In this document: positions 51,974-56,729 of the stretch, one piece after another
Layout: the number at the start of each line of letters is the position of its first letter
How positions within the stretch are numbered: position 1 is the first letter of the stretch
From: Spongiibacter taiwanensis
GTDB lineage: Bacteria; Pseudomonadota; Gammaproteobacteria; Pseudomonadales; Spongiibacteraceae
Assembly: GCF_023702635.1 (NCBI RefSeq)
Contig: NZ_CP098455.1
Location: 1,054,001-1,118,000 of the forward strand
Length of the DNA: 64,000 nt
Direction of reading: 5' to 3'
Translations under genes and position numbers: made by a program
The notes under the pieces: generated by a model
Databases searched by the model: none
Seen by the model: the letters and a program-made list of their open reading frames with translations, nothing else
What the model was told of the DNA's origin: nothing

Positions 51974-52432
51974 ATGAAACGCCCACATTTCCGCAGTTTT
52001 GCTACTCTGTGCCTGTTTGTTTGTGCGACGGTGCTTTTGACACCGAGCAGCCTGGCTGGCAAAGAGGGCTACTACCGGTGGAAGGACGACGCAGGTGAAA
52101 CCCACTTTACCCAGCAACCTCCGCTGGGACGGCAATACCAGTTTATTGAAACCCGCGGCGGCGCCAGTGTGGTCAGCGATCCCTCCAGCGGTGACAGCGC
52201 TGGCAATGACGACGGTGCCAAAGCCGACGCCGCGCCACAACGGATGGAAGTGCTGCCCCCGAAAGACCCTGCCATTTGCAGCCAGGCGAAGAGCAACTTA
52301 CTGACCTTACAGAAAAATGGCGCCCGCATTCGCGTGACCGACCCCGACGGCACCGCACGTCTTCTCGACGAGAAGGAAGTGGCAGAGCAGAAACAACGGG
52401 CACAAGAAGCCATCGGCATTCACTGCGCTTAA
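51974..52432 (+). CDS. DUF4124-domain periplasmic protein
   Basis: The 152-residue product has a signal peptide (ending SSLAG) and a DUF4124 domain (YYRWKDDAGETHFTQQPPLG), common in small envelope proteins with unknown function. A long polar, low-complexity segment (about 65-90) and a C-terminal helix follow. It is divergent from ilvI. In pseudomonads a similar small gene lies upstream of ilvI, so the neighbourhood is conserved. Confidence 0.85.
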   Translation: MKRPHFRSFATLCLFVCATVLLTPSSLAGKEGYYRWKDDAGETHFTQQPPLGRQYQFIETRGGASVVSDPSSGDSAGNDDGAKADAAPQRMEVLPPKDPAICSQAKSNLLTLQKNGARIRVTDPDGTARLLDEKEVAEQKQRAQEAIGIHCA

Positions 52433-53511
52433 AGCCAATCCCCTGCCCGCTCAACGGCCCACATTACGCCCACCCCGGCCGCTAACACCAGCTGCACCGG
52501 CAACAGACGCTGAAACCAGCTTTGCTCACGCAGGGGGAACAACAGCGCAAGCGCCAAGGCCACCAAAACCAGCTGGCCCACCTCAATACCAATATTGAAA
52601 CTGGCCAGGGCAACCACCCGCAAACTACTCGCTGCCAGCAAATCCGCCAATACACTGGCAAAGCCAAAACCGTGGATCAAGCCAAACCCGAACGCCAAAT
52701 ACCGCTGCACATGCTGAGCGGGCCAGAACGCTAATGCCGCCGCAATACTGATGGAAATCGCAATGACCGTTTCCACCACAGCGATAGGAAACCGGACCCA
52801 GCCCATGGATGCCATTACCAGCGTAATACTGTGCGCCAGGGTAAAGGCACTGACCACCCATGCCAGTTCCCTCATGGTGTGGCCCAGCGTGTGCAAGCCG
52901 CTGCTGCGGCTCAGGGCAGGCAGCACCAGTACCAACAGAAACAGCACATGGTCGAAACCACCAACGAGGTGAATAACCCCTTGCCAGAAAAAGTTGCCCG
53001 CCGTCGCCCAAAGGGAGTGATCGCCACCCGTTAAGAACACCGTGTTCTGCTCCGGCGACAATACCCCGATACGCTCCCCCTCGGCATCGGCCAGTTTATA
53101 CAGCAGACGGTGCAGCGGGTCGCGTTCGAACAGCAGGTTATATTCCAGTAGCAGCGTGCCACCGGGGGACGCAAAGCAGGGGGAACTCAGGCGCCAACTG
53201 CTGTAGGGGCCATCACTGTGTTCACTGATCCCGCTCAGCCCTGCGACTAACGCGCACGCTCCAGATTGGGAAGAACGAAGTGACAGAGCAGATTCAACTC
53301 GCGCTGCAAATTCCGCCTGACTGGCAGTGAGCTCCCCCCAACGCAGCGCACCGTCGCCATCCAGGTCCATGTTCTGCAGGCGCAGCATGTCTACCAGCGC
53401 AATATCCAGGCGCAGTGAGCTTCCGTCAAAATAGAGGTAACTGTCGCTGGCCTTGTGCGCCCAACCGAACTGGCACCAGAGCAGCAGTACGACGACAACG
53501 AATTTAATCAA
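52429..53511 (-). CDS. HupE/UreJ-family membrane protein with periplasmic EF-hand loop
   Basis: From TTG 53511, which overlaps the TPR stop codon, the product is 360 residues: signal peptide (FVVVVLLLWCQFGWA), periplasmic N-domain (about 20-160) with a canonical 12-residue EF-hand loop, D-L-D-G-D-G at residues 49-54 with Glu60, then about seven membrane helices with HLVGGFDHVLFLLVL and GLIHGFGFASVL. HupE/UreJ relatives import nickel or cobalt for hydrogenase or urease; neither is here, so the cargo is unknown. ATG 53574 is an alternative start but would overlap the TPR gene by 67 bp and displace the signal peptide. Confidence 0.82.
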   Translation of the reverse strand: MIKFVVVVLLLWCQFGWAHKASDSYLYFDGSSLRLDIALVDMLRLQNMDLDGDGALRWGELTASQAEFAARVESALSLRSSQSGACALVAGLSGISEHSDGPYSSWRLSSPCFASPGGTLLLEYNLLFERDPLHRLLYKLADAEGERIGVLSPEQNTVFLTGGDHSLWATAGNFFWQGVIHLVGGFDHVLFLLVLVLPALSRSSGLHTLGHTMRELAWVVSAFTLAHSITLVMASMGWVRFPIAVVETVIAISISIAAALAFWPAQHVQRYLAFGFGLIHGFGFASVLADLLAASSLRVVALASFNIGIEVGQLVLVALALALLFPLREQSWFQRLLPVQLVLAAGVGVMWAVERAGDWL

Positions 53512-54614
53512 GGCCTGGCCGCCTCGGCCCGGCGCAACACTCGGGCATCGGGAAGCTCCCGCTGAGATTGCCAATTTTCCCTGGCCATTTTCAGGGCAGT
53601 GGCATGATTCTTATCTGCCAACAATAGATAGTCAGCGTAGCCGCGTTTGTTCAAAAATTCTCCTCGCCACCGCGCCTCTTCAAATCGATCGCCAAGGGTT
53701 GCAAGCAAGTCAGCACCTTCCGGACCGGACAACACCTTTGCGCGGCACAGAGCTATATTATCCACGGACAACCTGCCCTCCGTTAACGCTAACACCGCCT
53801 CGTCTTTGCTGCGAAGCACCAGCACCTCGCACAACCGGCTGGCGCTATAAACATTCCCAGGCTCCAGATTGAGCGCCAATTGCCAGTAGGTTTCCGCCGC
53901 AGCCAAATCTTGGTGGCGCTCGGCAATATCGGCCAACGTTGCCACCGCCCACTGGCGGGAATCATCCAGCTTCGTCAGCCCCGCACCGGCCAGGGCCTGC
54001 TTCAAATCCTTGAAGGCGGCAGCACCCTCACCGTCATTTATCGCCCGAAGATGAGCGTGACAGCTTGCTGAGTAAAGATCTGTATCAGTACTGAGCCTGT
54101 CGCAGGCCGCCCTTGCCGAGCCATAATGACCCTGCACGAAGGCAATATTAAACTGCATCAACCGCGCCTGACGCCGGGTCTCAGGCGAAGCCGCCGCTTT
54201 TCGCAAGTCTTCTTCTGCCGAGGAAAACTGATGCAAACTCTGTCGCACCGCTGCGCGATAAAGGAAGAAAAACCCATCGCGCTCCTCCGCTGAGATCGCA
54301 AGCAGGGAGCGCTGGGCATCCCCAAGATATCGCAGATCAGCCGACTCGCGATAGGACGCCAGCGCCCGTCGCGACGCGGCCAAGAGAGCAGAAGCGGAGG
54401 CAGTTGAGCCAGGCACAACCTCGGCCTGCTCGACGCGAATAACCACCACCTCCCTGTCGGCGGGGCGGGATATCGGCGGTTGGGCAGCACTGAGACTGCT
54501 CACCAATACACCCCAAAGAAGGCAGCAACCCAAGCGCCCAAGTCTCGGCCGGGTATGCTGCAGTTCTACGGTGCGACGATAAACAGTCCAGCGCAACAAG
54601 GGCCGCGAATCCAC
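53508..54614 (-). CDS. Exported TPR-repeat protein
   Basis: The 368-residue product has an N-terminal signal segment (CCLLWGVLVSSLSA) and helical repeats: LAASRRALASYRESADLRYLGDAQ, FSSAEEDLRKAAASPETRRQ and ETYWQLALNLEPGNVYSASRL, typical of tetratricopeptide repeats. It begins 3 bp after the small lipoprotein gene and overlaps the HupE-like gene. It presumably scaffolds a partner in the periplasm; that is inference. No enzyme motif is seen. Confidence 0.8.
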   Translation of the reverse strand: MDSRPLLRWTVYRRTVELQHTRPRLGRLGCCLLWGVLVSSLSAAQPPISRPADREVVVIRVEQAEVVPGSTASASALLAASRRALASYRESADLRYLGDAQRSLLAISAEERDGFFFLYRAAVRQSLHQFSSAEEDLRKAAASPETRRQARLMQFNIAFVQGHYGSARAACDRLSTDTDLYSASCHAHLRAINDGEGAAAFKDLKQALAGAGLTKLDDSRQWAVATLADIAERHQDLAAAETYWQLALNLEPGNVYSASRLCEVLVLRSKDEAVLALTEGRLSVDNIALCRAKVLSGPEGADLLATLGDRFEEARWRGEFLNKRGYADYLLLADKNHATALKMARENWQSQRELPDARVLRRAEAARP

Positions 54615-54617
54615 GTG

Positions 54618-54854
54618 CTAATTCAACGCAGCATCGGCTGCGTCGTCTTCGCCACCGGAGCGGATTTCCAGGTCGTTAATGGCGACAGGGTCATCGTTGG
54701 GGCTTTGAGCAATGACTTGATTTAACAACGCCCCACCGGCAACCGACGATTCCTCGCCACCCCGGTTACCACCATCGTATTTGCTGTCATTGTTGCAGGC
54801 TGTTAACAGCAGCGCCGCGCTGACCACGATCAAGCTCTTGGATAATGAGCGCAT
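54618..54854 (-). CDS. Small lipoprotein of the DUF4331 operon
   Basis: The 78-residue product has a lipobox (AALLLTAC) and a short acidic, Gly-rich mature part (NNDSKYDGGNRGGEESS; GGEDDAADAALN). It is not a recognised family. It sits 11 bp after the DUF4331 gene and 3 bp before the TPR gene, so it is almost certainly co-transcribed. An anchor or adaptor role is a guess. Confidence 0.65.
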   Translation of the reverse strand: MRSLSKSLIVVSAALLLTACNNDSKYDGGNRGGEESSVAGGALLNQVIAQSPNDDPVAINDLEIRSGGEDDAADAALN

Positions 54855-54865
54855 ACCTCCCCCTC

Positions 54866-56482
54866 TCAATTCGACGATACAGTGACGGCCGCTGCGGCAG
54901 ACTCATTCGGTGAGCCTGGCACGGGTGTCGCAAGATAGGGGAACGTGGTTTGGAAGTCGGCCAAGTTGGGCAGCGCACCATCATTCACGACCACGCCGGG
55001 ATTAACCACCTGGGGCTCAGACCCCGCCAGACTGCATGTCTGTACACCGTTTTCTCCCAGCAGTGCGCCCTCGGCAACCGTCAACGCGATATCCACGACA
55101 TCGTCGGTCACTCGACGCCCGTTGGGGAAGCCCGCCAGATCACAGCCGATAAATCCGAGATCGCTATAGCCTGCACCGCCGGGCAGAACAGGGTCGATCG
55201 CCGTGTTCAGCCGCAGCATTTCGCCAGGCGTGGTCAGGTTTGCCGGAGCGGTAAATTTGAAACTGGCTGGGGTGTCTGTCTCTGCGGTAGTGACACCCGT
55301 GACAAACACGGCCAGCAGATCTGTCCTGCCGCCTTCGGGCATGGGCGCCGGCACATCAAACAACACCTCTACCAGCACGGGCAGGGTGGGATACAGCACG
55401 TAGGGGGCAAAATTGCCGACGTCATCCTTGGGCTCAGAAGCGTTGAACTTGTCTTTATCGGTGATCCCAATGACGACTTCATTCACCAGCGGGTTGCCCA
55501 GTCGCGACACCTGCGTCCAGGCACCCAGCTCTACTGAAGGGCCTTTGCCATTGGCATTCGCCGTGGCGCCCGCCGGAGCAGGATTTAAAATACGTCCCTG
55601 TGGCTTGCTAGCGGTTGTCCATGCGCCAATCACGGGATCGTCGCCGCTGGTCAGGCAGCTTATCGGCAGCTCAAGCGCGAGGGACGTCACGTTCTTGTCG
55701 CCAATGGTATTGCTGCGAGAATTCCGCGCGCCAAGGGGATTGAGGTTGATTTGGTCAAACACTTCGCCAAGGTTTACCACAAAGCCTTCGCGACGCTGAC
55801 CAACAAACATCCTTGCACCGGATGCCTGACACCCAGGCACGTCGATGTCGTAGACAAACTGCGAGGCGTAGCCCGCATAATCTGGAATGGTCTTCTCACC
55901 CATATTGTCCACCGGCTTGGTGAACGTCGACTCTCCCGAGCCAGTTTCCGTGACCGCTGCGCTTTGCCCACTGCGCCGATCACCCGTCACCAGCGCCACC
56001 GAGAAGGTCTCGACCACGTTGAGCAGGCCGGGAGTGCTACCTGAACCTGGCCCCACGGCCGCCAAAGGAACCTGCACGCCGCCATTCCCGGTATCGACCT
56101 CGCCGTTAGTGATCAAACCGGCTGCCGTCGCCTGCCCGTACTGGTTGTCGAATTGAAATTGAAAGGTGAGGTCTTCTTCCGCATCACCGTCGTTGTCGAT
56201 ATGAATTTCGTACAAGGCATTGGGATCGAGGGTGAAATAGTTCGGTCCGCCGTAGGCGTCCTGAAGTGGCTGGTAGTTAGCAATGATCGTGACAAAGCCT
56301 TCACGATTCTGCTCGTAGCTTCTAAACATGTAAAAGTCGGTGCCATCCACTTTCGGTGAGCCAGCAATAAATGGCGCCTCCCGATGACTCGAGGCAAGCG
56401 CATTGACAGCCCCACCGGCGACAGAAACAGTAACCAAAGCAGCGGCCAGAGACCGCGGCGAAAACGGACGAGACGGAACCAT
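54866..56482 (-). CDS. Secreted DUF4331 protein
   Basis: The 538-residue product starts at ATG 56482 (GGGG nearby) with a signal peptide (LVTVSVAGGAVNALA) and the diagnostic DUF4331 opening SSHREAPFI...DGTDFYMFRS. A calcium-type acidic loop D-N-D-G-D-A-E-E-D at residues 96-104 sits in YEIHIDNDGDAEEDLTFQF. The rest is beta-rich with no enzymatic motif I recognise. The family is widespread and functionally undefined. It leads a four-gene operon ending in the HupE/UreJ-like gene. Confidence 0.85.
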   Translation of the reverse strand: MVPSRPFSPRSLAAALVTVSVAGGAVNALASSHREAPFIAGSPKVDGTDFYMFRSYEQNREGFVTIIANYQPLQDAYGGPNYFTLDPNALYEIHIDNDGDAEEDLTFQFQFDNQYGQATAAGLITNGEVDTGNGGVQVPLAAVGPGSGSTPGLLNVVETFSVALVTGDRRSGQSAAVTETGSGESTFTKPVDNMGEKTIPDYAGYASQFVYDIDVPGCQASGARMFVGQRREGFVVNLGEVFDQINLNPLGARNSRSNTIGDKNVTSLALELPISCLTSGDDPVIGAWTTASKPQGRILNPAPAGATANANGKGPSVELGAWTQVSRLGNPLVNEVVIGITDKDKFNASEPKDDVGNFAPYVLYPTLPVLVEVLFDVPAPMPEGGRTDLLAVFVTGVTTAETDTPASFKFTAPANLTTPGEMLRLNTAIDPVLPGGAGYSDLGFIGCDLAGFPNGRRVTDDVVDIALTVAEGALLGENGVQTCSLAGSEPQVVNPGVVVNDGALPNLADFQTTFPYLATPVPGSPNESAAAAVTVSSN

Positions 56483-56729
56483 ATAACCCCCTAACGAGTT
56501 GTGAGCGTCGGCAAGCCTAGTGCATCCACAATGGGAAGAGAGCACACCGATCCTGCGACAAAAATTTCGAGCCAGTTTTGATACCCGCGCTACCGCTTAT
56601 TGTTAATTTCCAGCCCCGACAATCATGCAACGGTCAAAAAGTCGCATGCGGCACAGGGCAGGCGCAGCACCAAACTTCCCAGTGCTACGACCGAGTGACG
56701 GAGAACAGATCAGAAAAAAGAGAGGAAAT

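Follow-up and report, generated by a model that had tools for sequence, protein, structure and literature searches.

HupE permeases are described as nickel permeases for uptake (PMC12537917, citing Brito 2010), and the described systems closest to the one reported here are the Ang-1 'anglerases', which carry a periplasmic metal-binding domain in front of such a permease. For RbAng-1a, PMC12537917 reports that this domain binds Cu2+ (dissociation constant 74 nM) and Ni2+ (220 nM) through His1, and that His1 and Asn41 are the Cu ligands (PDB 9GCE); it proposes that the Ang-1 domain captures the metal and feeds its own permease. We analyzed a stretch of 64,000 nucleotides (hereafter, the window) from the 3.7 Mb, one-contig genome of Spongiibacter taiwanensis (NZ_CP098455.1, positions 1,054,001 to 1,118,000), in which a HupE-like protein with an Ang-like front domain is encoded behind genes for a DUF4331 protein, a small lipoprotein and a tetratricopeptide repeat (TPR)-type protein. 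We read this operon as encoding an envelope module that captures and transports a transition metal, is linked to extracytoplasmic function (ECF) sigma factors and carries a probably structural calcium-type loop. We regard this reading, which is drawn from comparisons of sequences and modeled structures, as an even call.

The four genes are co-directional on the minus strand (Table 1). The first-pass annotation had described them as a closely packed operon for a DUF4331 protein, a small lipoprotein, a TPR protein and a HupE/UreJ-like protein, all with export signals. The spacing was read back from the sequence: gaps of 11 base pairs (bp) between the DUF4331 and lipoprotein genes and of 3 bp between the lipoprotein and TPR-type genes, and a TTG start of the HupE-like gene that overlaps the TGA stop of the TPR-type gene as TTGA. 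Both outer identities were confirmed in Pfam: PF14224 (DUF4331) matched with 437.3 bits (cut-off 27) over the whole profile (1-421 of 421), and PF13795 (HupE_UreJ_2) with 138.8 bits (cut-off 24.5). For the lipoprotein, a lipobox, LLLTAC, was visible, but LPAM_1 scored 13.4, below its cut-off of 20. Proteins in the same slot at two other loci (L230 and L233) exceeded the Pfam TPR cut-off, but the window protein itself scored below it (TPR_2 15 bits, cut-off 27), so that 'TPR-type' is used here as a label only.

The transition-metal reading is based on the leading His of the HupE-like protein together with its 9GCE- and ZrgA-like fold, on an X-X-His N-terminus in DUF4331, on the exchange of the permease for NicO with His and loop kept, and on conserved gene order and genome-level co-occurrence. 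Neighboring genes for TonB receptors, DUF4198 relatives, type II secretion and sortases are counted as further support.

In the HupE-like protein, the signal end reads FGWA-HKAS, which by eye places a His next to the predicted cleavage site. A His followed the predicted signal peptide in all 41 full-length HupE frames of the class, genus and order loci (3 of them judged by eye, the other 38 by pattern; named-scan loci left out), and two copies read AHAHK at this point. In the permease part, H163, D169, H170, H209, E229, H262 and E292 were invariant in all 37 rows of the alignment. The protein was modeled with a predicted local distance difference test score (pLDDT) of 91.9. Foldseek matched the front domain to ZrgA (8ezw, E 4e-4) and PA4063 (E 1.7e-3), both zinc proteins. 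The top row of VIA-align for the model was Cu-bound 9GCE (Z 10.3, root mean square deviation 3.6, 130/168 aligned, 18% identity); ZrgA followed with Z 9.7, and unrelated transporters reached up to 9.4 on the permease part.

An X-X-His sequence with a free amino group is the amino-terminal copper and nickel binding (ATCUN) pattern, which binds Cu2+ and Ni2+. After a signal-peptidase-like site, X-X-His was found at 59 DUF4331 N-termini by pattern and at 1 by eye, the latter in the frame without the pattern at L053, which reads ASSHGEAP. The predicted N-termini were SSH, ADH, SDH or ANH; in 58 of the 59 the residue at -1 was A, G or S. Copies as divergent as 19% identity still had X-X-His. The pattern was missing from L052 and from pieces in L045 and L055, which did not cover the N-terminus. 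These counts are taken from profile-found loci only, because the pattern used to scan named genomes contained S[SD]H[RM]EAP and the best 80 named loci are biased for X-X-His. In L057 and L059, DUF4331 was apparently divided between two adjacent genes; the N-terminal half carries X-X-His, and the C-terminal half lacks it and starts like a lipoprotein. The DUF4331 model had a pLDDT of 85.8 (67 for the first ten residues). No solved sequence relative was found at E up to 1 and no Foldseek match below E 0.001, and the best VIA match reached a Z of only 5.8, with antibody chains. These negative results do not establish that the fold is new. DUF4331 or PF14224 was mentioned in no paper found, with most subscription journals and supplements outside the scope of the search; within that scope, the earlier view of a little-described, recurrent operon holds.

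By profile search, DUF4331 was present in 25 of 274 genomes of the class, in 16 of 18 of the genus and in 20 of 145 of the order. Scanning named genomes with a sequence pattern yielded at least 581 relatives, of which the best 80 were kept; these were mostly from Gamma- and Betaproteobacteria, with few or single bins of Alphaproteobacteria, Planctomycetota, Acidobacteria, Saprospiraceae, Pedosphaera and Melainabacteria. The resulting 141 loci (29 class, 15 genus, 17 order and 80 named) were annotated by seed profiles, since greedy frame picking hid genes at G+C-rich loci. The set used for counting gene order comprised 134 loci (29 class, 15 genus, 15 order and 75 named, with 5 duplicates removed). 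TPR and HupE relatives lay within 6.5 kilobases (kb) of DUF4331 at 91 of the 134; all three genes were co-stranded at 89, stood in the order DUF4331-TPR-HupE on one strand at 86, and had a TPR-HupE gap below 60 bp at 85. Co-occurrence in other genomes, which the first-pass annotation had set as its own test, is therefore not rare. HupE_UreJ_2 scored above cut-off in 22 of the 25 class genomes with DUF4331, against 51 of the 249 others (Fisher p = 1.9e-11, with relatedness ignored). All 15 congeners fetched carried DUF4331, lipoprotein, TPR and HupE genes and a convergent DUF4124 gene, and the gene order was alike in congener genome G279 and in Zhongshania aquimaris contig 4 (L123). Apparent TPR-HupE fusions (L152, L176 and L195) were rejected, their long frames being spurious other-frame extensions over the TPR gene.

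A small lipoprotein frame followed DUF4331 at 86 of 99 loci with a co-stranded TPR gene, at least 3 of the 86 being spurious. These lipoproteins were diverse, yet had common acidic EP motifs (DDTEP, SETDEP, NDEP) towards the C-terminus. In L046 and L055, the place of TPR and HupE after DUF4331 was taken by a large cytochrome c protein of multihaem type; in L046, Cytochrome_CBB3 matched this protein in four stretches.

Plasmids gave examples of partner exchange. We read 13 plasmid regions, out of 31 records with a match. Four of the five actinobacterial regions, all from Streptomycetaceae, had DUF4331, a tetratricopeptide protein and a 'nickel transporter' in the place of HupE; the fifth, from Miltoncostaea, had DUF4331 and TPR with no permease listed. 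The two Streptomycetaceae transporters tested were NicO proteins (36.9 and 30.7 bits, cut-off 27.7). All four had a signal peptide, then A-HPLGNF and a DxDxDG-type loop downstream. In these sequences the predicted marks of the front domain, leading His and loop, persist while the permease family switches from HupE to NicO. HupE/UreJ was found downstream of DUF4331 on one Pseudoalteromonas, one Marinobacter and one Lichenicola plasmid.

Several neighbors went beyond what the first-pass annotation had covered, as did the ECF control described below. A sortase gene adjoined DUF4331 in three of the four Streptomycetaceae plasmids. In all four Rhodobacterales plasmid regions (L224, L226, L228 and L229), DUF4331 belonged to a type II secretion cluster, flanked there by a prepilin peptidase and GspK; because these genes stand together, DUF4331 may be a dedicated secretion substrate. 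One Adhaeribacter plasmid had a TonB receptor upstream of DUF4331 and TPR downstream. Among the best 80 named loci, 15 had a TonB receptor within 6.5 kb, a raw count without a background rate, and 11 of 14 (duplicate removed) were co-stranded with DUF4331; this receptor subfamily has several His around the plug. A DUF4198 relative was near DUF4331 at 6 of the best 80, with PF10670 confirmed in the one tested. DUF4198 is described as a Ni-binding family often found beside Ang-1 genes (PMC12537917). An Rfam search over 8 loci gave a single match, an acidobacterial cobalamin riboswitch (L178:1603-1780, 94.4 bits) upstream of a TonB receptor gene region, and none in front of DUF4331.

An ECF sigma gene with an RskA-type or ChrR-cupin anti-sigma gene lay within 6.5 kb at 12 of 29 class, 0 of 15 genus and 11 of 17 order loci and at 37 of the best 80 named loci (representatives were tested for identity, the remainder assigned by clustering). 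Upstream of DUF4331, many loci had a promoter of the form TGCATCC-N16-CGTA. ATCC-N16-CGTA was found at 32 of 58 sigma-linked loci and at 23 of 59 others outside the genus, where the most frequent pair of words in shuffled controls, each set being mononucleotide-shuffled once, reached 5. The strict form, GCATCC-N15-17-CGTA, was present in 8 of 23 class and 4 of 14 order upstream regions and in 22 of the best 80 named ones, against 1 of 2640 shuffles. Promoter-matrix counts were 12 of 23 for class, 1 of 15 for genus, 8 of 14 for order, 57 of the best 80 for named and 30 of 58 for sigma-linked upstream regions; they are circular because the matrix was trained on the same regions.

In all 15 congeners, TGATC and CGTA lay between -59 and -103, at a distance of 17 bases in 11 congeners and of 18 in 4, and 11 of the 15 read TGATCn-N16-CGTA. 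GATC-N16-18-CGTA occurred in 15 of 15 congeners and in 1% of shuffles; the congeners are related and not independent, the pattern was picked after the sites were seen, and the start codons that define the upstream regions were guessed. The site agrees with the consensus that PMC5507510 and PMC4336711 print for RpoE-ChrR. Cupin_7 matched in 18 of 18 genus genomes and RskA_C in 0 of 18. In four of the nine Cupin_7 loci read, including that of the genome of the window, a sigma-ChrR pair had GATCC-N16-CGTA in front. The window also has a GATC-N18-CGTA match about 230 bases upstream of the operon, away from the congener position. As to Zur, no link to the operon was seen in the portions of the literature consulted, and no Zur-box scan was made.

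Taken as a transition-metal module, the operon might work as follows. DUF4331 would be exported, probably to the surface or the extracellular space, and would bind metal via its N-terminus, Cu2+ or Ni2+ being the best fit to X-X-His. Where present, the TonB receptor would carry the metal, free or in a complex, through the outer membrane; the lipoprotein and the TPR-type protein would organize the parts; and the HupE-like protein would take the metal by its N-terminal His and move it through the inner membrane. The ECF sigma factor would switch the operon on in many relatives, the promoter appearing lost in this strain. A bolder version makes DUF4331 a secreted protein metallophore with an ATCUN-type N-terminus, exported through type II secretion or sortase-anchored. 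Together with the TonB receptor, lipoprotein, TPR-type protein and exchangeable HupE/NicO permease it would define a new class of transition-metal acquisition system that is widespread and under ECF control. We offer this version tentatively and think it rather doubtful. If the transition-metal reading is true, DUF4331, a widespread family without a mention in the literature searched, would gain a function and a tie to the newly described anglerase permeases, and unannotated genes of many marine and soil bacteria would become a metal system open to testing. Which residues to alter first is indicated by the permease exchange and by both N-terminal His motifs.

Several results weigh against the transition-metal reading. 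Export signals and cleavage sites in all proteins were placed by eye and not by a signal-peptide program, and the rows of the HupE alignment were cut at the His, which makes its 37/37 for H1 true by construction. The comparison with Ang-1 ligands covers His1 and not Asn41. 9GCE was absent from the best 60 of 99 profile matches of the front domain, where EF-hand calcium proteins stood instead. At 43 of the 141 loci, some of which a contig end truncates, no HupE was found within 6.5 kb, and neither TPR nor HupE was listed in the four Rhodobacterales regions. The TonB receptor figure is a raw count. As for control, the best matrix score in front of the window operon was -2.3, against a null 95% value of 6.1, and alignment placed no CGTA at the congener position, so that the promoter common to the congeners appears lost; ECF control is therefore predicted for the relatives and not for this strain. 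Finally, the best NCBIfam match of both NicO proteins was a nickel/cobalt efflux family (106 and 125 bits, below the cut-off of 195).

This last match would fit an opposite direction, in which surplus metal is bound by the same envelope parts and exported through the permease. Stress-type ECF neighbors would suit such detoxification. The description of HupE as an uptake permease in PMC12537917 and the TonB receptors beside some loci speak for uptake, which on these comparisons is favored, and we consider efflux unlikely.

The first-pass annotation had proposed a calcium- or metal-linked envelope complex from two acidic loops. Both loops are where it had put them, and both are conserved among orthologs. 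In the HupE-like protein, residues 49-60 of the precursor, DLDGDGALRWGE, form an EF-hand-type loop of 12 residues with acidic residues or Asn at 1, 3 and 5 and Glu at 12, flanked in the model by helices 21-27 and 40-45. All four side-chain positions were kept in 69 of 72 HupE relatives scored on their best 12-mer (of 95 frames, 10 were unplaced and 13 genus copies excluded; the 72 still include three duplicate pairs), and in the alignment D31, D35 and E42 were conserved in 35, 36 and 35 of 37 rows. In DUF4331, the loop DNDGDAEED (precursor residues 96-104) had D66 in 37, N67 in 39, G69 in 40, D70 in 38 and D74 in 39 of 42 rows. In a profile search with the HupE front domain, EF-hand calcium proteins ranked first (best E 2e-4). 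Because the loop is kept and the profile finds EF-hand proteins first, a calcium site is likely too, most likely one that shapes the Ang-like domain and is probably structural. A complex centered on calcium, in which Ca2+ bound at the two loops joins the DUF4331, TPR and HupE proteins, could claim this conservation, these matches and the loop retained in NicO versions. However, L035, L036 and some genus copies lack the EF-type loop and retain the leading His, and the permease families and fold matches indicate transition metals, signals that appear stronger than the calcium signal of the loops. We therefore judge such a complex improbable: the metal link stands, and the calcium reading, built on loops alone, was too narrow.

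An oxidative-stress function, in which DUF4331 acts within an ECF stress regulon as an enzyme or protectant and is served by the metal parts, has in its favor congener promoters that match the TGATCC-N16-CGTA of RpoE-ChrR systems as printed in PMC5507510 and PMC4336711 and ChrR-cupin anti-sigma genes beside some loci, but seems equally improbable, since many linked anti-sigma factors are of RskA type with no known signal, the sequence and structure searches, which do not exclude a catalytic relative of DUF4331, found none, and the window operon lacks the promoter.

Table 1. Positions of the operon genes and their predicted features in the window.
Feature	Position	Strand	Basis
DUF4331 protein, 538 amino acids, predicted exported	54866..56482	-	PF14224 437.3 bits; order conserved
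Small lipoprotein, 78 amino acids	54618..54854	-	Lipobox by eye
TPR-type protein, 368 amino acids	53508..54614	-	TPR_2 below cut-off; relatives occupy same slot
HupE/UreJ-2-like protein, 360 amino acids, Ang-like periplasmic domain and permease	52429..53511	-	PF13795 138.8 bits; model pLDDT 91.9
Predicted mature His1 of HupE-like protein	53455..53457	-	His after Ala/Gly at signal end
Ang-like/ZrgA-like periplasmic domain, mature residues 1-146	53020..53457	-	9gce and 8ezw structural matches
EF-hand-type loop DLDGDGALRWGE, mature residues 31-42	53332..53367	-	69/72 relatives scored
HupE_UreJ_2 permease domain with invariant His/Asp/Glu	52525..52992	-	Pfam; 37/37 rows
Ser-Ser-His, predicted N-terminus of mature DUF4331 (X-X-His, ATCUN-like)	56384..56392	-	Pattern after signal-peptidase-like site
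Acidic loop of DUF4331, mature residues 66-74	56171..56197	-	Conserved in alignment
Putative decayed ECF-type promoter position: GGATCG, 16 bases, TTGT	56528..56553	-	Congeners: TGATC...CGTA

Beyond the operon, a DUF4124 gene (window 51974-52432, plus strand, 37.5 bits) is convergent with the HupE gene and overlaps it by 4 bases; this is the convergent gene retained in all 15 congeners.

The operon can be placed among known systems. Like the RpoE-ChrR (ECF11-type) regulons, the genus has the TGATC...CGTA site (15 of 15 congeners) and, in four genomes, a sigma-ChrR pair with its own site. The operon is not among the RpoE-ChrR targets in the parts of PMC5507510 and PMC4336711 consulted, and the window operon appears to have lost the site. 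The Rhizobium HupE nickel permease, cited in PMC12537917, is of the same permease family, with invariant His/Asp in the membrane helices. The window protein differs from it by the extra front domain, and no hydrogenase setting was noted. The first-pass annotation named no hydrogenase or urease nearby, though no search was aimed at either. ZrgA of Vibrio cholerae and PA4063 are zinc-binding periplasmic proteins that share the fold of the front domain; presumably they differ from the HupE-like protein in having no permease fusion and in their partners. The nearest relative is the anglerase RbAng-1a, in which a periplasmic domain with a leading His is fused to a HupE/UreJ-2 permease; the window protein has a corresponding front domain whose modeled fold resembles 9GCE and whose leading His is predicted, and 9GCE was not found by sequence among the best 60 of 99 matches listed. 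The EF-type loop and the DUF4331, lipoprotein and TPR partners are features of the operon described here that the main text of PMC12537917 does not mention for Ang-1.

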